Origin: Parapedobacter pyrenivorans | GTDB lineage: Bacteria > Bacteroidota > Bacteroidia > Sphingobacteriales > Sphingobacteriaceae | Direction of reading: 5' to 3' | Length of the DNA: 64,000 nucleotides | Assembly: GCF_014636865.1 (NCBI RefSeq) | Contig: NZ_BMER01000001.1 | Span: 856,718 to 920,717 of the forward strand | Shown: piece by piece, positions 24,716 through 35,327 of the stretch | Numbering within the stretch: position 1 is the first letter of the stretch | Layout: every line of letters starts with the position of its first letter | Position numbers and translations under genes: made by a program | Notes under the pieces: model-generated | Seen by the model: only the letters and a program-made list of their open reading frames with translations | What the model was told of the DNA's origin: nothing | The model's database searches: none

Positions 24716-25132
24716 TCAATGCGCTTTGAGCAGAAAAAGCACGATGTCGTTGATATAAATAAGTCCGACCAGTTTACCCTCTTCGACAACGGGCAAGGCA
24801 GCGAAATCCCGTATTGCCATCAATTCTGCAACTTCCCAGACTATAGCGTCCAAGGCTACCAAGGGCAAATCTCTATCCATTACCTGGTCGACCTGCAGCA
24901 TGTCGAGCATGCCTATTTCGATATCTTCCCGCCCCTCATAAGTATAACCGAACCCCAACCGCAGCATATCTTTACGGCCGATGATACCGATGACCCTGTC
25001 CTGGTCCATGACGGGAATATGCTGGAGCATATTACTTTTCATTAATCGATAAGCAACACTTATCCGATCCTGCGCATGTACAACGATATCGCTTTTGCGA
25101 ACGATTTCGGTGATTGGAATATTTTCTCTCAT
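24716..25132 (-). CDS. Two-CBS-domain protein
   Basis: A 138-residue stand-alone CBS pair read from the ATG at 25132; a TTG at 25174 could add 14 residues. CBS 1 covers VRKSDIVVHAQDRISVAYRL onward with HIPVMDQDRVIGIIGRKDM; CBS 2 covers VMDRDLPLVALDAIVWEVAE with ALPVVEEGKLVGLIYINDI. Such modules sense adenine nucleotides or related ligands and act on partners. No effector domain is attached. The stop is 3 bp from the convergent ATL gene. Confidence 0.9.
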   Translation of the reverse strand: MRENIPITEIVRKSDIVVHAQDRISVAYRLMKSNMLQHIPVMDQDRVIGIIGRKDMLRLGFGYTYEGREDIEIGMLDMLQVDQVMDRDLPLVALDAIVWEVAELMAIRDFAALPVVEEGKLVGLIYINDIVLFLLKAH

Positions 25133-25240
25133 TCCGAGCGAATAATGTTCCTTGGAATACAATATTTGTTCCAACTTTCTTTATAAAAAAATGAGTCCTT
25201 CACTGAAGGTCAAAGAAAGCTGTTTAACAGCGGGTTATAC

Positions 25241-25303
25241 GGGATGTTGATCAGCATTCGTAGTGATATCCGTCATTTTCCAGTATGGCCTCTCGATAGA
25301 CAC
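25241..25303. repeat. Left copy of a direct repeat flanking the SusCD cassette
   Basis: Bases 25241-25279 are identical over 39 bp to 34750-34788, in the same orientation. Similarity continues more weakly to about 25303 (matching to about 34813) with a 1-bp indel and scattered substitutions. In the right copy this extension is the end of hpt. Confidence 0.85.
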
Positions 25304-25414
25304 CTTCCAATACGCGCAAAGCAAGAGGGGGCGTACATCGTGCCCATAAGGTGAGCTAGCCCGAGGAACAGGGTCTGCAATTGGAAAGAGCAACGCCACA
25401 GCATTTAAGTTTTA

Positions 25415-25455
25415 AATGAAAAAGAAAATGCCAGGAATTGATCTACCTGGCATTC
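25415..25455 (-). terminator. Terminator of the SusCD cassette
   Basis: An 8-bp stem, ATGCCAGG (25428-25435) with CCTGGCAT (25446-25453). Read on the minus strand it is followed by TTTTCTTTTTC. It lies 25 bp after the last cassette gene's stop at 25479. Confidence 0.8.
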
Positions 25456-25478
25456 ATTTAAATTTAGGGGGGTTATCA

Positions 25479-26543
25479 CTATTTTTTGAAAAAGCGCATA
25501 CCCCGTAGGTTGAAGCCCGATTGTTCGGTAAATATCCTCACCTTGTGCTTGCCTGCCGTGAAATTGATTACCAATCTTGGGTCTGGGAACCAGCGCCAGT
25601 CGGCCCAGGAGCCGTTGTTCGGAACATCGACGGTACCGGTTACATTCACGCCATCCACTTCAACCCTTAACTTGGCGTCGCCGGCGGCCGACAATCCCAA
25701 ATCAAACCAATATTCGCCAGCATCCTGTACGTATACGGTGTATTGCCACCATTCGCCACCATTGATATAGCCAATATTGTTGCCGTCGCCCTCAATTTCT
25801 ACCGCGAAGCTTTCGGTATCACCTTTACCACGGCGGTAATTGTCATTACCAATCGCGCTGGTGGCATCCGCGTCGTGAAATGCAAGACCTTCACCACCAT
25901 AATCAAAATCGGCAGCATAAATAATTCGTTCCGCTGCTGCCGAGAGGATGTGTGGACCATTGAACGGACTGGTGAAGCTTACGTCCACGACAGCGCGTTG
26001 TTCCACGGTGCCTGCCCGGTAGACAATATGTGTAATCCCCTCACCTATGGCCGTGATTTCGCCGTTTTCGCTAACGGTTGCGATTTCCGGATTCTCCGAA
26101 ACCCACTGCCAATCCGGGATATCATTCGCCGTCGCAGGTATAAAGGTAGCCAAAAGCGTCTTTTGTCCGCCGGGCATCAACTCGATGTTGTTCTCACTTA
26201 AGATAACATCTTCAAGCGGAATCCGCGTAATGGATGTAATCGGCACAAGTGTTTTCGCGGGGCCTCCGGTTACTATGACATTCGTGAAGCCTGAACTTAT
26301 TGCCTGGACCAACCCGCTGCTGCTAACCGTAGCAATGGCAGGATCTTCACTCGTCCATTGGTAGTTGTAGGTGCCGTCTGTAGGGCTGACTTTCAGTTGC
26401 ATCTGTTCGCCTACGAAGAGCGATAAGGACGCTTTGTCGACGTAGATGTTTTTCGGGATATCTTTTACCTCATAGTCGTCGCAGCCCATTGTGCACAGCG
26501 ACAATAAGATGCCTAGGGCAAGGTAATTAAATTTATTTTTCAT
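25479..26543 (-). CDS. Lipoprotein with Ig-like (BIG2) domains and a CBM6-type domain
   Basis: A 354-residue lipoprotein read from the ATG at 26543, which gives a lipobox (LCTMGCDDY, Cys~21); earlier ATGs overlap the upstream gene. Two bacterial Ig-like domains follow (one with WTSEDPAIATVSSSGLVQAI, one with WVSENPEIATVSENGEITAI). The C-terminal ~140 residues resemble CBM6/CBM35 carbohydrate-binding modules: YINGGEWWQYTVYVQDAGEY and VDGVNVTGTVDVPNNGSW. Likely a surface glycan-binding protein of the SusCD cassette. It is the last gene in the unit. Confidence 0.88.
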   Translation of the reverse strand: MKNKFNYLALGILLSLCTMGCDDYEVKDIPKNIYVDKASLSLFVGEQMQLKVSPTDGTYNYQWTSEDPAIATVSSSGLVQAISSGFTNVIVTGGPAKTLVPITSITRIPLEDVILSENNIELMPGGQKTLLATFIPATANDIPDWQWVSENPEIATVSENGEITAIGEGITHIVYRAGTVEQRAVVDVSFTSPFNGPHILSAAAERIIYAADFDYGGEGLAFHDADATSAIGNDNYRRGKGDTESFAVEIEGDGNNIGYINGGEWWQYTVYVQDAGEYWFDLGLSAAGDAKLRVEVDGVNVTGTVDVPNNGSWADWRWFPDPRLVINFTAGKHKVRIFTEQSGFNLRGMRFFKK

Positions 26544-26571
26544 TTCAACACAGTTAAAAGGACAAAATCTA

Positions 26572-27510
26572 TTACAATCTGGTTTCCTCATCCGGATCAA
26601 ATTCCAGTCTTAGCTCTTCTTTCATTTGATAGACTACACCATCCATGCGGAAATAATAGTTGAGCAGGAATGTTTTGTAGGTTTTAAACCCGTCGTCCTC
26701 AATGGCAAAAGTATTCGGGTAGTCGCTATCCCCATCGATCTGCTGGACTTCTACATCTTTGTAGGGGCGAATGGTCACCTTGTTATCCTCGCCGATCAGT
26801 AAGGTAATCGCCGCGCGGTTAAACACGTTCACATTTGAAGAGTACGCCTCGTTACCTACCATGATCCGGACCTCGCGCTCGCCGATGGGATGCATGATTT
26901 TGGTACCGGGCAGCTGCAATTCAAATGCGGAGCCATCCTGACGTAGCCGTGCACGCATGCTGTAGATGGTGTTTCCGTCGGCACGTGCCCAATAGTTTTT
27001 GATCCGTACGCGGTACAGCAGGAAGCTCTTCTCTGGATTGACTTCGTAAGACGAATGCGACTCGACCCGCAACGGAATAAAGTAAGACGAATCGGGCGAC
27101 AGTCCATCCGGCCTGATCCGTATCGGAAGGCGTCCGCCGATGTCTCCCGCTGGGATTGTAAACGAGTACTTTTCGATGTCATATTTGCTTGTCGGCAGTG
27201 GTCGGACGTATTTGGAATGATCTACATCAAAATTGGTGCGATTGTACTCATCGATCAATGTCGGGTCTTCAATCAGATTTACCTCAATGGGTTTGTTCGT
27301 CGGCGTTGTTCCACCCAATGAAGCGGCAACATAGCCTATTGTTTCGCTTCCCAAATCGTGGAATTTGGATGATACGTTGTCATTTTCACTAATTAGAGCG
27401 AATACATTTTTATACTGTTCGCGTTCAAAGATTTCATCCCTTTCGCACGATAAGTTTATCACGGCGAAAGCGGCTAAGGCCGAATATTTTATATATGAAA
27501 ATTTTTTCAT
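26572..27510 (-). CDS. DUF1735-type surface lipoprotein
   Basis: A 312-residue lipoprotein from the ATG at 27510 (lipobox VINLSCERD). Residues ~40-160 match the DUF1735 beta domain seen beside SusD (YSFTIPAGDIGGRLPIRI, then YFIPLRVESHS). A second domain, possibly DUF4361, starts near YWARADGNTIYSMRARL. These proteins sit on the cell surface and are thought to help capture glycans. The start lies 11 bp after the SusD stop. Confidence 0.85.
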   Translation of the reverse strand: MKKFSYIKYSALAAFAVINLSCERDEIFEREQYKNVFALISENDNVSSKFHDLGSETIGYVAASLGGTTPTNKPIEVNLIEDPTLIDEYNRTNFDVDHSKYVRPLPTSKYDIEKYSFTIPAGDIGGRLPIRIRPDGLSPDSSYFIPLRVESHSSYEVNPEKSFLLYRVRIKNYWARADGNTIYSMRARLRQDGSAFELQLPGTKIMHPIGEREVRIMVGNEAYSSNVNVFNRAAITLLIGEDNKVTIRPYKDVEVQQIDGDSDYPNTFAIEDDGFKTYKTFLLNYYFRMDGVVYQMKEELRLEFDPDEETRL

Positions 27511-27521
27511 GCTCGGATTTA

Positions 27522-29525
27522 TTAATTTTCCCAACCTGGATTTTGATCCAACGAAGGCAGCAACCGCACCTCTTCAAGCGGAAGCGGCAGTAATGCCAGC
27601 CTTCTATTTACAATACGCGCCCCGATTCGTGACGTATTTGGTACAACCCGTGTATAGTACACGTCTTTCGAACCTTCAATGTTCATACCACGGATGGGTT
27701 CACTCTCTGTCTGCTCGTAAATACCCCATCTCCGCACATCGAAATAGCGGCGATTCTCGAACAGAAACTCAATCATACGCTCCTTTTCAAGTAATTGCTG
27801 TATGGTTTCGACACTTTCATCACCAGTAATGCCCGGCAATCCAGCCCGGTGGCGCACCTGATTGAAGGCTTTGCGAATCTCTTCCGTGTCTCGGCTTAAA
27901 GTAAGTTGTCGCCCATCCACATCAATGGTGTGGCTACCAGTCAAATTGTTTAACGCTTCAGCATAGGATAACAGGATTTCGGCATACCGAATGATTGGGA
28001 AGGCCTTATCCATACGGCGCGCATTGGTTCCGCCAAAGGCATCGGTGGGATGAATGAATTTTTTGATCACGTAGCCCGTTACGGGAAAGTCAGTCGGGCT
28101 ACTTACACCACCTTTCCCATTGGGAGAATCGTAATAATAGGAAATCGTTTGATTATAAAAGCCCGACGAGGTTGAAGAGCTCATTGGCCAATAGCATTCG
28201 CTGAAGCCAATGGAGGCGTAAAACCGGGCTTCGCGATTCACATACATGTTGCTCACCCCGGCATTCAGCCGATAACCGGAGAATAATTTAGCGGATCCCG
28301 CAAAACCGGTTTCCGTATAGGGATATTCCTGGCTCGAATTGTCAATGGTCCGACCATCAATCATACGGTAATTGTCAATGATCTTTTGTGTAACGCTCAA
28401 TCCGTTCCAGCCACTCTGCTTTTCCGGGAAAGCCATTTGCGTATTGGCTTGAACAACACTGCTTCTGCGTCCCCAAACATATTCGGGGTTTGTAGGAATA
28501 ACTGATTCGCCGGTAAACATATCCGAATAAGACTTGTAGTGGTCGATGCCCGCAGCTCCTTCCGGCCAAGGCTTGTAGTAATCAGGATCGGAGATTATTC
28601 CTGAAGGAAGAGGTGGGGTATCCGAATCTGCTGCTACTGTATGTAAGCGATAAGAAACACCGCCAGCCAGACTCAGATCCATCACCCGCTTTGCGGCAGC
28701 CGCCGCCAATGCCCAGCGCCGCTCGTCGTAGGTTTGAGAAACATATTGTGCATTATCTGTAGAGCGCCGCCAATTGCCGAAAAACGAACGGGCTGCCTGG
28801 CCGCCGTTGTATAATGGGCTGGCGTGTGTAAGCCGGAGACGGGCTATCAAACCATAGGCGGCACCTTTTGTCGGAAGGCCAAACTCCATCAGGCTCCCTG
28901 AAGCTGGCAAAGCGATTGCAGCTGTCTCGAATTCTGCACAAATGTATTCCACCGCCTCATCATACGTGGTACGTGCGCGATCATAATCGGCCAATGGTGC
29001 ATTGGATTCGATAATCTCGTCACCAAGTAGGATTGGAGGGCCATAATCTACAAGAATACTGTAATATGCATACGCCCGGATGAACCGCGTATAGGCAAGA
29101 ATCTCATAACGCTCGTTTGCTGTCAGATCTCTTGCCTCATCAATCCGGGTGAATATAGTATTGCACTTGCGGATTATGCGATAATAGTTCCCCCATCCTG
29201 CTGAGCCAACATTGGCTGCAGTAATTTCACCGAGGACAAAGCGCATCCCGTTGTAGTTATGCAGTGTTAAAAATGCGGTGAATGCCTCATCCGTGGCCAG
29301 CGGCCCCGGCGTAATATTATTCTGGAAAAAATTGGCTTCGTCGGGAAACATGCCTGCCGCTCCCCACAAGTACGCTTCCAAATGACGTTTCTCAGCGAAA
29401 ACCGAATCAAGCTTCAGCTCTTCGCTGAAGTAATTGTCTACGCTCAAAAAGTCCTTACAGGCCGATCCGGTAAGGCATAGACCTGCCGAAAGCACCAACC
29501 ATTTACCTAATTTCATTAGTTTCAT
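27522..29525 (-). CDS. RagB/SusD-family nutrient-uptake lipoprotein
   Basis: A 667-residue outer-membrane lipoprotein (lipobox LTGSACKDF) forming the lid of the SusC transporter. TPR-rich helices fit SusD: YTRFIRAYAYYSILVDYG near the N-terminal part and FAEILLSYAEALN-like sequence (RYAEILLSYAEALNNL) near the C-terminal part, ending in FENRRYFDVRRWGIY and a typical C-terminal proline-rich loop. It is longer than average SusD (about 500-550), with extra loops in the middle. It pairs with the SusC 14 bp upstream. Confidence 0.95.
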   Translation of the reverse strand: MKLMKLGKWLVLSAGLCLTGSACKDFLSVDNYFSEELKLDSVFAEKRHLEAYLWGAAGMFPDEANFFQNNITPGPLATDEAFTAFLTLHNYNGMRFVLGEITAANVGSAGWGNYYRIIRKCNTIFTRIDEARDLTANERYEILAYTRFIRAYAYYSILVDYGPPILLGDEIIESNAPLADYDRARTTYDEAVEYICAEFETAAIALPASGSLMEFGLPTKGAAYGLIARLRLTHASPLYNGGQAARSFFGNWRRSTDNAQYVSQTYDERRWALAAAAAKRVMDLSLAGGVSYRLHTVAADSDTPPLPSGIISDPDYYKPWPEGAAGIDHYKSYSDMFTGESVIPTNPEYVWGRRSSVVQANTQMAFPEKQSGWNGLSVTQKIIDNYRMIDGRTIDNSSQEYPYTETGFAGSAKLFSGYRLNAGVSNMYVNREARFYASIGFSECYWPMSSSTSSGFYNQTISYYYDSPNGKGGVSSPTDFPVTGYVIKKFIHPTDAFGGTNARRMDKAFPIIRYAEILLSYAEALNNLTGSHTIDVDGRQLTLSRDTEEIRKAFNQVRHRAGLPGITGDESVETIQQLLEKERMIEFLFENRRYFDVRRWGIYEQTESEPIRGMNIEGSKDVYYTRVVPNTSRIGARIVNRRLALLPLPLEEVRLLPSLDQNPGWEN

Positions 29526-29539
29526 ATGCTGGATTGTTA

Positions 29540-32500
29540 TTATAAGTTAATGTAAAGTTGGAGGATAAAGCTTGACGGAATCGGATAGACTTCTCCATTT
29601 CGTTGTGCCTGTTCGGGGTCGAAAATCTTAACCCTATCCCAAATAGCTAAGTTATTGCCTGTTAGCTGAAAGTCAATGGATGTGATTTTCAGCCGTTGCA
29701 GAAATGCCTTGCGCAAGTTGTAGTTTAACGTGACCTCCTGCAGCCGAATATAACGTGCATCGCCTTTCCAGTAGTCAGAAAGCCGGGTATTGTTCTCATT
29801 GTATCCGTAAGTGAGCCTGGGAAAGCGCGCGTTTGGATTTTCGGCTAATGCCGGGTCGATGCCTTGGGCAATTGCATACTCCCGTGGTATCCATCGGTTA
29901 GATGGGTCATTGATGAGGGAAAGTACGTTGCCATTAACTCCGTTATAGAACGGCACGTAGCCGGTGGCATTGACGCCATAACCTGGAACAAATTGCCCAA
30001 CATGAAAGAAATCCGTTTTACCTGTACCTTTGAATAGTACACCGACGGTAAAGTCTTTATAGCGGAATTCGCCACCAAAGCCAAACATCAACAGGGGATA
30101 TGTCGCATACGACAACGGCACTTGGTCATCGGTATTGATGACTCCATCGCCGTTGATGTCTCGGTATTTGATGTCGCCGGGCATCACCTGACCAAACTGG
30201 GCAGGGCTGTTATCCACATCGTCCCAATCTTTGAATAGACCTAACGACTGATAACCCCGTATCGCACCGTGGGGGAACCCGGAGATTTCCTGGTATCGGT
30301 ACCTCGGGTTAGCTTCTTCCCAGTTCTGTACATCGTTCTTGGAGTAGGTAAAGTTTCCCCTTACCGTAAAGTTCATATCGGCATTCAATTTCTGGGTAAA
30401 GCTGGTGCTTCCGTCTGCTCCATAGCTCCTCATCTTACCCACGTTGCCAAAAGGCATATTCACCAGACCTGCATAGGAAGGCACCTGCACACGTTGCATA
30501 AAGATGCCGTTTCGCTGGTCATTAAACAAGTCAAACACAAATTGTACTTTGTGGTCGAAAAGTGTGCCTTCAATACCCAGGTTGGATTTGATCGCTTTTT
30601 CCCACTCCAGGTTGTCGGCTCCTACAACCCCTTCGTTAACCGCATCATTGATCTGACTGGTACCCCATGGGCTGACAGTGTATTGATTCACCAGTGTAAG
30701 GTATGGGAATCTGCGCGAACCGATCCGGTCGTTACCCACGGTACCGTATGATCCACGGAACTTCAAGAAGTTAATCCAAGACATATTGTCTTTTACAAAC
30801 TCATAATTTGAAGGTACCCAACCGCCCGCTACAGAAGGAAAGAAGCCGTACTGCCTACCCGGCTGGAAGTTTTCGGAGCCCGTGTATCCGAAGTTAAAGT
30901 CAATCATATACGTGTCCCGGAACCCATATGTAAACCGGCTGGAAACACCTTGATAGCGGATCGGGATAGCCCTTAAATTGTTGGGAGCCGGTTGACCAGG
31001 TTCTTGCGCCCACTTTTGATCACTGATGTAATAATAAACTAATGCTGACGCACGGTGAGCCCCATCTCCGCCGAACACTTTGTCGTAGTTGAGGGTGGTT
31101 TCAAAATGGTACCGCCGATATTGGTTAGTGCTATGCCCATAGGATATCGCGCCTTTCTGTACGCGTTCGATGGTAATGAGATCGCCTTGCTGGTCGCGGC
31201 CTACAGCTTGGTGAAGGGCAGGATACGTCATCCGGCTTTCGTTAAAATGGCTGATCAGGTCATAAGCGCCTTGCCCCCGGATTTTCAGGCCTTCGAGAAA
31301 CATCGATAGGTCCTGATCAAGCTGTAGGGTGAATTTGCCGCGATATTCCTGATCGGTACGCCGCCCCATGTTATTGATCATCACATTTGGTGACCGGAGC
31401 GAAGCGGTTTCCGATGTCGCCGGAAACTGTCCGTTCGAGTACATGGTTGGTAGCAATAATGGATTCAGATTAGATTGGGCAAACCAGATATAATCGGTAT
31501 TGGCTACACCCGGATTATTTCGGATGGCCAAAAAGCCATCCGTCCCGAAAAATAGGCTGGTGGAAGGGGAGAGTTCGAGATCGATGTTCGTTCGGTAGTT
31601 GTAGGTCTTAAAACCGGTATTGGCCGAATACACACTGGTTTTATCGTAGTTATAAGCGGCTTGGTCGTTGGTGAACCCAAGACTTAGAAAGTAACGGGCC
31701 ACCTGTGCACCACCACGTGCACTAGCGTAGTAACCCTGGCGCAAGCTCTGCTTACGCAACACTTCATCCTGCCAACTTACATCGGGATAGATGTCTGGAT
31801 CAAGACCGTCCTGAATGATATCCAGTTCCACGTCGGAATAGATTTCACTTTCGCCGCGAAGTACCCGCGCTTCATTGGCGAGCCTCGCATAGTCATAGGC
31901 CCGCAAATAAGTGGGAACCCGGTTTAGATAAGACAGCGTTGAATTGACCCGCCCAGTAATGCTTAGCCTGCCGGATTGACCGCGCTTGGTGGTAATCAAC
32001 ACGACCCCATTCGCTCCGCGAACGCCATATACCGCCGTTGCTGATGCATCTTTCAGAATGGAAAAACTTTCTATGTCTGCCGGATCAATCGTGTTGATAT
32101 TTCCTTCCAATCCGTCAATCAGTACCAGGGCGCTGGCATTTGCCCCAAAAGTGCCAATGCCTCGAATCCAGAACTCGGAAATGTTTTTCCCCGGTTCGCC
32201 ACTGGTCTGCATGGAGATTACCCCTGCCGCACGCCCGCCCAACAGGTTAGCTATGGAGGGTGCTGGCGTCTGTAGATCCTTCGGGTCGACTGTAGTAATC
32301 GCTGCCACGGAAGAGATTTTACGTTGTGTCCGGCCTAAACCTGTCACCACGACTTCATCAAGCGCTTCTGCTTTTTCGGTGAAGCGGACCACGACATCCT
32401 TCTTTTCCTCGGTTACCAAGTATTCGAATTTTTCGTATCCAACGTAGTTAAAAACAATCATATCGCCCCGGGATGCCCGGATGGTGAAACTGCCGTCGTC

Positions 32501-32674
32501 GGCAGACGCCGTTCCGATGGTGATCTTATCCCGCAGGTAGATCGAAACTCCTGCCAAAGGTTTCTCGTTCTCATCATACACCACGCCCTGCATGGTATAG
32601 GCACTCTGCTCCTGTGCGCGGGCAATGAAGGATACTGATAACAGTACCCCCAGTAAGTAGGTTAAATACTTCAT
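29540..32674 (-). CDS. SusC/RagA-family TonB-dependent transporter
   Basis: A 1044-residue outer-membrane barrel. A signal peptide (ends at IARAQEQ) precedes a carboxypeptidase-D regulatory-like domain (VVYDENEKPLAGVSIYLRD), a TonB-box-like stretch ALDEVVVTGLG, and the plug (PSIANLLGGRAAGVISMQ, LVLIDGLEGN, SILKDASATAVYGVRGANG). The C-terminus ends in the aromatic FILQLYINL expected for barrel insertion. With the SusD it would import an oligosaccharide or peptide-linked nutrient through TonB energy. No glycosidase accompanies it. Confidence 0.97.
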   Translation of the reverse strand: MKYLTYLLGVLLSVSFIARAQEQSAYTMQGVVYDENEKPLAGVSIYLRDKITIGTASADDGSFTIRASRGDMIVFNYVGYEKFEYLVTEEKKDVVVRFTEKAEALDEVVVTGLGRTQRKISSVAAITTVDPKDLQTPAPSIANLLGGRAAGVISMQTSGEPGKNISEFWIRGIGTFGANASALVLIDGLEGNINTIDPADIESFSILKDASATAVYGVRGANGVVLITTKRGQSGRLSITGRVNSTLSYLNRVPTYLRAYDYARLANEARVLRGESEIYSDVELDIIQDGLDPDIYPDVSWQDEVLRKQSLRQGYYASARGGAQVARYFLSLGFTNDQAAYNYDKTSVYSANTGFKTYNYRTNIDLELSPSTSLFFGTDGFLAIRNNPGVANTDYIWFAQSNLNPLLLPTMYSNGQFPATSETASLRSPNVMINNMGRRTDQEYRGKFTLQLDQDLSMFLEGLKIRGQGAYDLISHFNESRMTYPALHQAVGRDQQGDLITIERVQKGAISYGHSTNQYRRYHFETTLNYDKVFGGDGAHRASALVYYYISDQKWAQEPGQPAPNNLRAIPIRYQGVSSRFTYGFRDTYMIDFNFGYTGSENFQPGRQYGFFPSVAGGWVPSNYEFVKDNMSWINFLKFRGSYGTVGNDRIGSRRFPYLTLVNQYTVSPWGTSQINDAVNEGVVGADNLEWEKAIKSNLGIEGTLFDHKVQFVFDLFNDQRNGIFMQRVQVPSYAGLVNMPFGNVGKMRSYGADGSTSFTQKLNADMNFTVRGNFTYSKNDVQNWEEANPRYRYQEISGFPHGAIRGYQSLGLFKDWDDVDNSPAQFGQVMPGDIKYRDINGDGVINTDDQVPLSYATYPLLMFGFGGEFRYKDFTVGVLFKGTGKTDFFHVGQFVPGYGVNATGYVPFYNGVNGNVLSLINDPSNRWIPREYAIAQGIDPALAENPNARFPRLTYGYNENNTRLSDYWKGDARYIRLQEVTLNYNLRKAFLQRLKITSIDFQLTGNNLAIWDRVKIFDPEQAQRNGEVYPIPSSFILQLYINL

Positions 32675-32695
32675 CCTAAGTTTGAGGTTTGATGA

Positions 32696-34018
32696 TTAAT
32701 TGACTGACAATTTTCTTACCCGGTTGTTATCGAAATCGGCCACATAAACCGAACCGTCGCTGCTGATACCAATACCGGTTGGATTGTTAAACAGCGCTTC
32801 CTCGCGCCCGCCATCCCGCCAGCCCGCAGTACCCGGCATGCCCAAAACGGTCTCCACCATACCTTCTGGCGTAATCCGACGGATGCAGTGATTACTCCGG
32901 TCCGCGACAAAGATATTGCCGTCCTGATCACAGAAAATCTGGTCCGGGTTACGGAATTGCGCCACTTCTAGGCGGCCGTCACGATGTCCGCCAGCTGTTG
33001 AACTGTTGAGTTTTTTGAAGGTATTGTCCGGATCGGTTACATCAATGCTACAGATGCTGTTCGCATTGACACCCGCATTGCCGAAAAATGACATATAAAG
33101 AATGTTGGGTTCTAGGGGACTAAACGTCATTCCATAACTATCTCCCTGTTCGGTCTTAAAGATCGTTTCGACTTCGTACGTTGTTGGGTGGATTTTTACA
33201 ATGTGACCATGATAATAACGCGTATAGATATAGCCGTCGGAAGGATTGAACACCATACTGTGCTTCCAACCCGCCTCCGGCCGGTCACCCGTGGCGGGCC
33301 ATTTCATTTCCCGGATTCGCGGTGCCCAGAACTCTTGTGGATCAAGCGTATAGAATGATCCGATCGTGGTTTCGGTCGGAAAGCTGATCAGTCCGCTGAC
33401 CGGGTCGGCCGCGGGCACATTGCCCACGACGTCACGTGCCACTGTAATTAGCTCGTTGGCTTCTTCGTCTATACGGGCTACATGGTAAAGGCCGGCCTCT
33501 CGGTTGATCATAAAGATATTGTCGTCCTTATCCACGCAAAGAAACCTCGGTGTTACGATGGATTGGGTTAGGTCACCATCCCGGTACTCAGATCGACTAC
33601 CATTTCCGGCAATTGTTGTAACAGTCACCGAGGTGTGATATAGAAATTTCTTTTGGAATACGACCGAATCAGAGCCGACCGCCACTGAAATGACACATGT
33701 GTCGCCTGGTAGGCGTGGTGCCATCACATACATGCGTTCGCCCGTGGAACCAATGACTGGCGCCCTACGTTGATTGAACCAAACGCGGATTTGCTTCGGA
33801 TCAGATCCGAAGTTTTTTCCAATCAACATTACTTTTTCCTGGAATATCCCGGAATCTGGATAGAAAGATGTCAGTTCGATTGGTAACCCAGGATCATACT
33901 CGCTCCCGGATTTCGTCAGTTCTTTGTCCTTACAGGACTGAATGGCAAGCATACTTATCAGCGCAGGCATCAACATCCCGCAAGATAAAAGCCAAGTGTT
34001 TTTGTTTTTTATACCCAT
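32696..34018 (-). CDS. IPT/TIG and NHL-repeat lipoprotein
   Basis: A 440-residue lipoprotein (lipobox IQSCKDK) and first gene of the cassette. An IPT/TIG Ig-like domain spans ~45-125 (ELTSFYPDSGIFQEKVMLIG, then GKNFGSD). The rest is an NHL-type beta-propeller with repeats such as FLCVDKDDNIFMINREAG, QIFCDQDGNIFVADRSN and GIGISSDGSVYVADFDN. Such proteins accompany SusCD pairs and probably bind glycans at the surface. A palindrome lies 69 bp upstream. Confidence 0.9.
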   Translation of the reverse strand: MGIKNKNTWLLSCGMLMPALISMLAIQSCKDKELTKSGSEYDPGLPIELTSFYPDSGIFQEKVMLIGKNFGSDPKQIRVWFNQRRAPVIGSTGERMYVMAPRLPGDTCVISVAVGSDSVVFQKKFLYHTSVTVTTIAGNGSRSEYRDGDLTQSIVTPRFLCVDKDDNIFMINREAGLYHVARIDEEANELITVARDVVGNVPAADPVSGLISFPTETTIGSFYTLDPQEFWAPRIREMKWPATGDRPEAGWKHSMVFNPSDGYIYTRYYHGHIVKIHPTTYEVETIFKTEQGDSYGMTFSPLEPNILYMSFFGNAGVNANSICSIDVTDPDNTFKKLNSSTAGGHRDGRLEVAQFRNPDQIFCDQDGNIFVADRSNHCIRRITPEGMVETVLGMPGTAGWRDGGREEALFNNPTGIGISSDGSVYVADFDNNRVRKLSVN

Positions 34019-34781
34019 GTAATTTTAACTTGAATGTATTGTTTTTATTTATTCATTATTGGTTTTTTCGCAAAAGCATAGCTTTGTATGGTCTTATATA
34101 AACCAGACCATAACCGTTTACAGCTATCCGAATGAATCAGCGTTGCCAGCTAACTTGCTTTCCGTTTTTAATCGCGGAGTTTTAGATCCTAATTTGTTAG
34201 GCCGACCGCAGCCTAATCAATGTCAACCACGTTGGTAAAGGAGATGATACCCGTTACTGGCTAGGGGCATAAGGGTTTGGTAAATGAGAGCGAGTAAGTG
34301 TTCCTTTCATAGCATGAATTTAAGTTATAAAATAATCGCATTGGCGTCTTATCAAATAAAGATACGATTTACTTGAATTGCAACCTGTACTATCCTGCAT
34401 CGATTTTTGCTGCATAAAACCTTTTAGCCAGCTATTTTCTTGTTTATACAAGTATTTGGTCAAGATAGGATAATCTAGAAAATAGGCGAATTTTCACTAC
34501 TTCTATTAAAAATTATCACAAGTTTCTCTTCTTTTCAAACATTTACGCCGAATGGGATAGGGTTCAACTATTAAATGGTTTTGATTGAAAATCTGTTGCG
34601 TTGAGCACATCATATATTAAAGCCGATAAAGGGTTAAAGCGCTAAGCCTTTCGTTGATTTCGGCCTTACCCGCTTTCTGGATGTCCGCTTTCTCGGTCAG
34701 CCAGTTAAAAAATCCTATTGAAACGATATGAAACAGTCGGGACTATTAGGGGATGTTGATCAGCATTCGTAGTGATATCCG
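34019..34781. other. 763-bp intergenic region upstream of the SusCD cassette
   Basis: From left to right: the leader of the TIG/NHL gene, a palindrome at 34087-34112, A/T-rich sequence without a clean promoter match, a minus-strand frame of about 40 codons at 34617-34742 with coding-like composition but no start (includes NWLTEKADIQKAGKAEINER), and the right direct repeat. No tRNA or RNA gene was recognised. It may hold a decayed gene. Confidence 0.45.
34087..34112. promoter_or_regulatory. Perfect 8-bp-arm palindrome, candidate operator of the SusCD cassette
   Basis: TATGGTCT (34087-34094) and AGACCATA (34105-34112) are exact inverted repeats with a 10-bp spacer that is itself A/T-rich. It lies 69 bp before the ATG of the first cassette gene. 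No regulator is encoded in the cassette. Confidence 0.5.
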
Positions 34782-34813
34782 TCATTTTTCAGGTATGACC
34801 TCCCGATAGATAT
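34750..34813. repeat. Right copy of the direct repeat, overlapping the 3' end of hpt
   Basis: Bases 34750-34788 are identical to 25241-25279. The hpt stop codon (34782-34784) lies inside the repeat, and the weaker extension covers the last eight codons. An ATGA overlap at the hpt stop would open a 26-codon frame through the repeat. Confidence 0.85.
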
Positions 34814-35327
34814 CCGGCAAGGTCCGCCCCATGCCTTGATAGTCCAATCCGTAACCCACCACGAAATCGTTGTCGATTTCGAACCCTACATAGGCAATAT
34901 TGTCAAATATATGGTTTACGGCTTTCGGTTTGAGCAGCAGGGTACATACAGCTACCGAAGCCGGGTTTTGGGCGTTTACCAGATCAAGTGTATGTTTCAA
35001 TGAGTTGCCGGTATCCACGATATCTTCTACAATGACCACTTCCCGATCTGCAAGGTCACAGTCAAGGCCAATCAATTCGTCTACCTGCCGACGTTGGGAA
35101 ACGCCGTCATAAGATGAGAGTTTAACAAAAGACAGCTCGTTGGCAATATGGATCTGTTTCATCAAGTCTGCCATGAACATGAAGCAGCCATTAAGCACTC
35201 CGATGAAAACCGGGTGTTGCTTTTCGTAGGTTACATTGAGCTGTATGCCGATAAGCCGGATACGTTTCTTTATCTGGTTATAGTCTATGATACGCTCAAA
35301 CTCTTTGTGGTTTATTGTAATTTTCAT
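34782..35327 (-). CDS. hpt: Hypoxanthine phosphoribosyltransferase
   Basis: A 181-residue purine-salvage enzyme converting hypoxanthine/guanine plus PRPP to IMP/GMP. The PRPP-binding motif VVIVEDIVDTGNSL (~residues 95-108) is intact, with VFIGVLNGCFMFMADL for pyrophosphate binding and the base-stacking region FVVGYGLDYQG. The last ~8 residues (YREVIPEK) fall within the repeat extension and may not be ancestral. It follows the GT51 gene by 7 bp and is cotranscribed with it. Confidence 0.95.
   Translation of the reverse strand: MKITINHKEFERIIDYNQIKKRIRLIGIQLNVTYEKQHPVFIGVLNGCFMFMADLMKQIHIANELSFVKLSSYDGVSQRRQVDELIGLDCDLADREVVIVEDIVDTGNSLKHTLDLVNAQNPASVAVCTLLLKPKAVNHIFDNIAYVGFEIDNDFVVGYGLDYQGMGRTLPDIYREVIPEK

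Follow-up and report, generated by a model that had tools for sequence, protein, structure and literature searches.

Gene content of the hpt locus

The DNA analysed is a window of 64,000 nucleotides from Parapedobacter pyrenivorans, in which a cassette of five minus-strand genes stands behind hpt (Table 1). A first-pass annotation made from the letters alone had described these genes as a single SusCD-type unit, and both gene and Pfam reading bear this description out. The cassette contains an adjacent SusC/SusD pair, as expected of a polysaccharide utilisation locus (PUL); from their signal sequences, read directly, SusD and the other three non-barrel proteins are lipoproteins. No carbohydrate-active enzyme or regulator, the further mark of a PUL, is found among the five genes, whose neighbours are hpt and a CBS-domain gene. 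The cassette is located between core genes, carries no mobility genes, and yielded neither a transposase nor terminal inverted repeats. A scan of its two non-coding ends for relic genes gave no Pfam family at meaningful E-values, and searches with these ends elsewhere in the genus returned only noise. The terminator with which the cassette had been credited is a likely hairpin, found by eye: its stem (25427-25435 with 25446-25454) is followed by a T-rich stretch on the minus strand, and its loop of 10 exceeds the limit of the terminator scan, which therefore passed over it.

Table 1. Features of the hpt locus, in coordinates of the window.
Feature	Position	Strand	Remarks
hpt, hypoxanthine phosphoribosyltransferase, intact target gene	34782-35327	-	NCBIfam TIGR01203 above cut-off; Pfam Pribosyltran
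39-bp direct repeat, copy A	34750-34788	+	last ~7 bases of hpt and 32 bases after
AT-rich non-coding leader between hpt and cassette	34019-34749	.	GC 36.5%; without recognisable gene remnant
TIG and NHL-repeat surface lipoprotein	32696-34018	-	Pfam NHL, TIG; PDB 3hrp, 2.3e-31; lipobox read directly
SusC/RagA-type TonB-dependent outer-membrane transporter	29540-32674	-	NCBIfam TIGR04056, 927 bits
SusD-type lipoprotein	27522-29525	-	Pfam SusD_RagB, 2.9e-57; PDB 7bll, 3qnk, 5cjz
DUF1735 (BT_3987-like N) and BT_3044-like C lipoprotein, SusE position	26572-27534	-	
Lipoprotein with two Big_2 domains and CBM6	25479-26600	-	
Putative cassette terminator	25427-25454	-	9-bp stem, 10-nt loop, T-rich tail; read directly
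hpt-like remnant beside copy B	25280-25300	-	diverged match to hpt C-terminal codons, p = 0.0006
39-bp direct repeat, copy B	25241-25279	+	
Pair of hairpins, with a T-run after the second	25197-25231	-	probably the original hpt terminator, displaced
CBS-domain gene, native neighbour after hpt	24716-25174	-	same order in three congeners

A direct repeat with diverged flanks

The cassette is bounded by two copies of a 39-bp sequence in the same orientation, and sequence comparison returned the exact identity, at the same coordinates, that had been claimed for them. The match widens to 46 bp at 96% identity, and a BLAST alignment across both repeat regions covers 79 nt at 88.6%. The number of chance matches expected within the window for a repeat of 39 bp is 0.00. 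A scan of the 744 kb of continuous sequence that surround the window found only two pairs of exact direct repeats, 24 bp or longer, at spacings of 0.5-60 kb, and the pair flanking the cassette is the longer, the other measuring 24 bp. A genome-wide count, which the first-pass annotation had proposed as a check, gave exactly two copies in the 5.9-Mb genome with up to 3 mismatches allowed; the sequence is absent from 400 other genomes of the family, and the viral contigs searched gave no match. The placement of the repeat at the 3′ end of hpt holds for the roughly 7 of its 39 bases that cover the last codons and the stop; the remaining 32 are intergenic sequence, which is not conserved across the genus.

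Past the 39 bp, the two regions remain weakly alike on either side (chance p = 0.006 and 0.0006), with changes at about one position in four of these flanks, whereas the block itself has none. Beside copy B, direct reading reveals a remnant in frame with the hpt end (RVLEGVYREAILEN versus RTLPDIYREVIPEK). Little similarity to hpt is left past the first 20-35 bases outside the block.

The empty site and the native flank

Comparison with relatives, another of the checks proposed, revealed an empty hpt site in all of the Parapedobacter congeners compared (8/8): no SusCD genes lie between hpt and MGMT. The order hpt, (CBS), MGMT is kept in all eight, and DUF1080 follows the same order in seven of them. 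The insertion is thus derived in the lineage of this species. Many copies of the repeat elsewhere without cassettes, or relatives all carrying the five genes at hpt without repeats, had been named in advance as evidence against a cassette inserted at hpt; neither was found.

The CBS-domain gene follows hpt in only three of the eight congeners and is strongly diverged (43-61% identity). The 30 bases before this gene match P. defluvii at 97%, which marks the flank beyond copy B as native. When the flanks are rejoined in silico, the paired hairpins before the CBS gene would fall about 50 bases after the hpt stop codon. The cassette has therefore probably parted hpt from its putative terminator, which now lies 9.5 kb off.

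A portable module in other genomes

The same five genes are found well beyond this locus. Among 36 loci found with SusD, the full or near-full gene order recurs in most, as far as contigs or similarity allow it to be judged, and these loci come from several Bacteroidia families. No fixed set of enzymes accompanies the module across Sphingobacteriales, Bacteroidales, and Marinilabiliales, and its neighbours vary, including purH, citrate synthase, gcpE, rhamnosidases, GH20, GH43, and a hybrid two-component regulator. The five genes are a portable module. The other module boundaries tested show no comparable repeat. The module often lies tail to tail with a convergent gene, for example purH, citrate synthase, or gcpE, with the two 3′ ends facing each other (loci L056, L074, L068, and L050).

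SusD shares 72-75% identity with several Bacteroidales and Marinilabiliales copies, compared with only 47-49% for Mrp in the same genomes, a disparity that points to transfer between orders. A tree of all five proteins pairs P. pyrenivorans with P. defluvii (98/98) within a group that mixes orders. The five genes taken jointly thereby overturn the SusD-only tree, in which P. defluvii and A37T11 appeared as sisters. As for a source, no donor paralogue was seen in the genome itself, where the next SusD reaches 37% over part of its length, and plasmids hold no close SusD (best 45%).

The two congeners carry the module at different sites. In P. defluvii, it adjoins a TonB-receptor gene; the orthologue of that gene in P. 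pyrenivorans (84%) lacks the module and has another gene upstream. Third-position divergence from P. defluvii is 56-62% for the module and 52-60% for ordinary orthologues, and the base composition of the module is native. Such native-like composition and ortholog-level divergence give no evidence of a foreign origin in this species; on these grounds, the module could have been in the genus for long and changed its place, instead of being a newly acquired foreign element. At the same time, a perfect and mostly non-coding 39 bp would hardly outlast divergence at the level of P. defluvii. The separation from that species therefore probably long predates the arrival of the cassette at hpt, or else the event that last made the two repeat copies identical.

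Recombinases and hpt as an integration site

Consistent with the earlier remark that no integrase was visible, neither an integrase nor a remnant of one is present in the 9.5-kb element. Genome-wide, the tyrosine recombinases number two, namely XerD, above its curated cut-off, and an XerC-like protein whose best family is XerC at a score below the cut-off; no serine recombinase is found in the genome. For a genome of 5.9 Mb, this set was judged small. To place hpt in a wider context, 25 loci from other genera were surveyed with XerC/XerD seeds over 1.5 kb, and neither an integrase-like match nor a cassette gene was found behind hpt; a different conserved gene often comes next. The notion of hpt as a hot spot in the family was accordingly dropped.

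How the cassette may have reached hpt

Taken as a whole, the locus is a real insertion, probably a fairly recent one, of a mobile SusCD module that lacks enzymes; its general kind is known, and its footprint is unusual. As to the route, a Campbell-type single crossover may well have placed the five-gene uptake module after the stop codon of hpt and ahead of its putative terminator, a reading that claims about half of our confidence. The incoming DNA, presumably circular, would have brought the module together with a diverged copy of the hpt-end region, and the crossover would have fallen in the 39-bp block, within a longer imperfect match of about 80 bp on the incoming DNA. The junctions are indeed hybrid. 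Copy A joins native hpt on one side to the cassette on the other; towards the cassette, copy B adjoins a diverged end resembling that of hpt, and away from it the native sequence of the CBS side. Mismatch repair in the joint could render the central block identical. The agent of the crossover might have been RecA, acting on short homology, or an integrase since lost. The repeat is missing at the other sites of the module that were tested; this route is thus not a general one.

Alternatively, a staggered break behind hpt could have been filled in on either side of the inserted cassette. About 80 bp of the host would thereby have been duplicated, with later decay of one of the copies. The diverged match does span about 79 nt, and copy B is, by eye, nearer to the hpt end of P. 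pyrenivorans itself than to those of the congeners. Decay after such a duplication should nevertheless be even, yet the middle 39 bp are unchanged between flanks of which roughly a quarter has changed; a perfect block within diverged flanks fits a single crossover better than a clean target-site duplication. Moreover, the cassette lacks the transposase and terminal inverted repeats of a transposon or composite IS element. We therefore consider this origin unlikely, with some appreciable weight left to it.

A more doubtful proposal is that a tyrosine integrase acted at an attachment site in the 3′ end of hpt and that the element later lost its integrase gene. Direct repeats, one of them at the 3′ end of an intact gene, and an empty site in relatives are the textbook outcome of such integration and are shared with integrase-borne islands, ICEs, and IMEs. 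The 9.5 kb without any integrase, a genome whose recombinases are of the XerC/XerD types alone, and the absence, among the genomes compared, of another with the same site occupied speak against it, as do the unconserved intergenic bases that make up most of the repeat, its lack of a match in the family genomes and viral contigs, and the 25 hpt loci of other genera. Of the earlier suggestion on how the cassette came to hpt, arrival as a unit is supported by the empty sites, the module elsewhere, and the displacement of the putative hpt terminator; arrival as a standard integrase-borne element is not.

It is improbable that hpt was duplicated in tandem and that the cassette took the place of most of the second copy, sparing its last codons and the sequence downstream. 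The in-frame resemblance of the remnant by copy B to the hpt end would suit such a history, but no congener has two hpt genes, and the similarity to hpt fades soon after the block. We find it very improbable that the 39-bp block serves as a functional site of recombination, through which the integrase-less cassette would exit and re-enter by means of host XerC/XerD or an outside enzyme; repeated crossover would then hold the block identical while the flanks diverge. Finally, the alternative raised by the first-pass annotation, a dispersed repeat or regulatory element independent of the insertion, is rejected as scarcely credible: both copies do lie in mostly non-coding sequence beside genes, but there are only two of them in the genome and none in the 400 others, with no unusual fold and no Rfam match as an RNA element.

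Recombination between the repeats could possibly lead to loss or duplication of the cassette.

Function and comparison with known systems

Sus-type uptake complexes can include accessory surface lipoproteins. The BT_2264 complexes (5fq6-5fq8) resemble the cassette in joining a SusC/SusD pair to such lipoproteins; unlike theirs, the accessory proteins here are of the NHL/TIG, DUF1735, and CBM6 types. The five proteins, a SusC barrel with its SusD lid and three lipoproteins of the surface, most likely work together as a complex in the outer membrane that imports a glycan or glycoconjugate, the breakdown enzymes being encoded elsewhere, and CBM6 suggests a carbohydrate ligand. The enzymes adjoining the module in other genomes are too varied to name that ligand. 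In seven Bacteroidales loci (L066, L068, L070, L076, L077, L080, and L084), the module adjoins a protein related to the endonuclease/exonuclease/phosphatase family and bearing a BACON domain, at 26-57% identity to the copy in L084. This neighbour may be a hint of a phosphate-linked ligand. For DUF1735, a role as a spacer bound to the membrane has been proposed (PMC11216935).

Among Bacteroidota, the movement of PUL-like clusters that carry no mobility genes has no settled explanation (PMC8845570). Because its junctions can still be read, the hpt locus provides one specific example where the point of crossover can be identified, and the conserved five-gene module is a candidate stand-alone importer with a testable ligand. 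Within the literature library covered, no report on hpt-linked islands or NHL/TIG-SusCD modules was found.

Several known systems share features with the locus. Genomic islands at gene 3′ ends are inserts flanked by direct repeats, one of them at an intact gene end. Unlike these, the hpt cassette has no integrase, and its repeat lies mostly outside the gene in unconserved sequence. PULs for porphyran, agarose, and carrageenan ride integrative conjugative elements, according to work cited in PMC8845570, and SusCD loci also occur on gut MGEs (PMC6907783). In both cases, as here, SusCD genes have moved horizontally between Bacteroidota; in contrast to both, the hpt cassette has no integrase, relaxase, or conjugation gene. 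Closer still are the PUL islands of Bacteroides ovatus/xylanisolvens, which lie between core-gene nodes, lack mobility genes, differ among relatives, and have been explained by homologous recombination between the flanking core genes (PMC8845570). Like those islands, the cassette is a SusCD-bearing cluster set precisely between core genes; unlike them, it has a 39-bp direct repeat and a partial gene end at its junctions and no CAZyme. The hpt cassette is thus a variation on a known pattern, in which such cassettes move between core genes, and it is the junction that differs.
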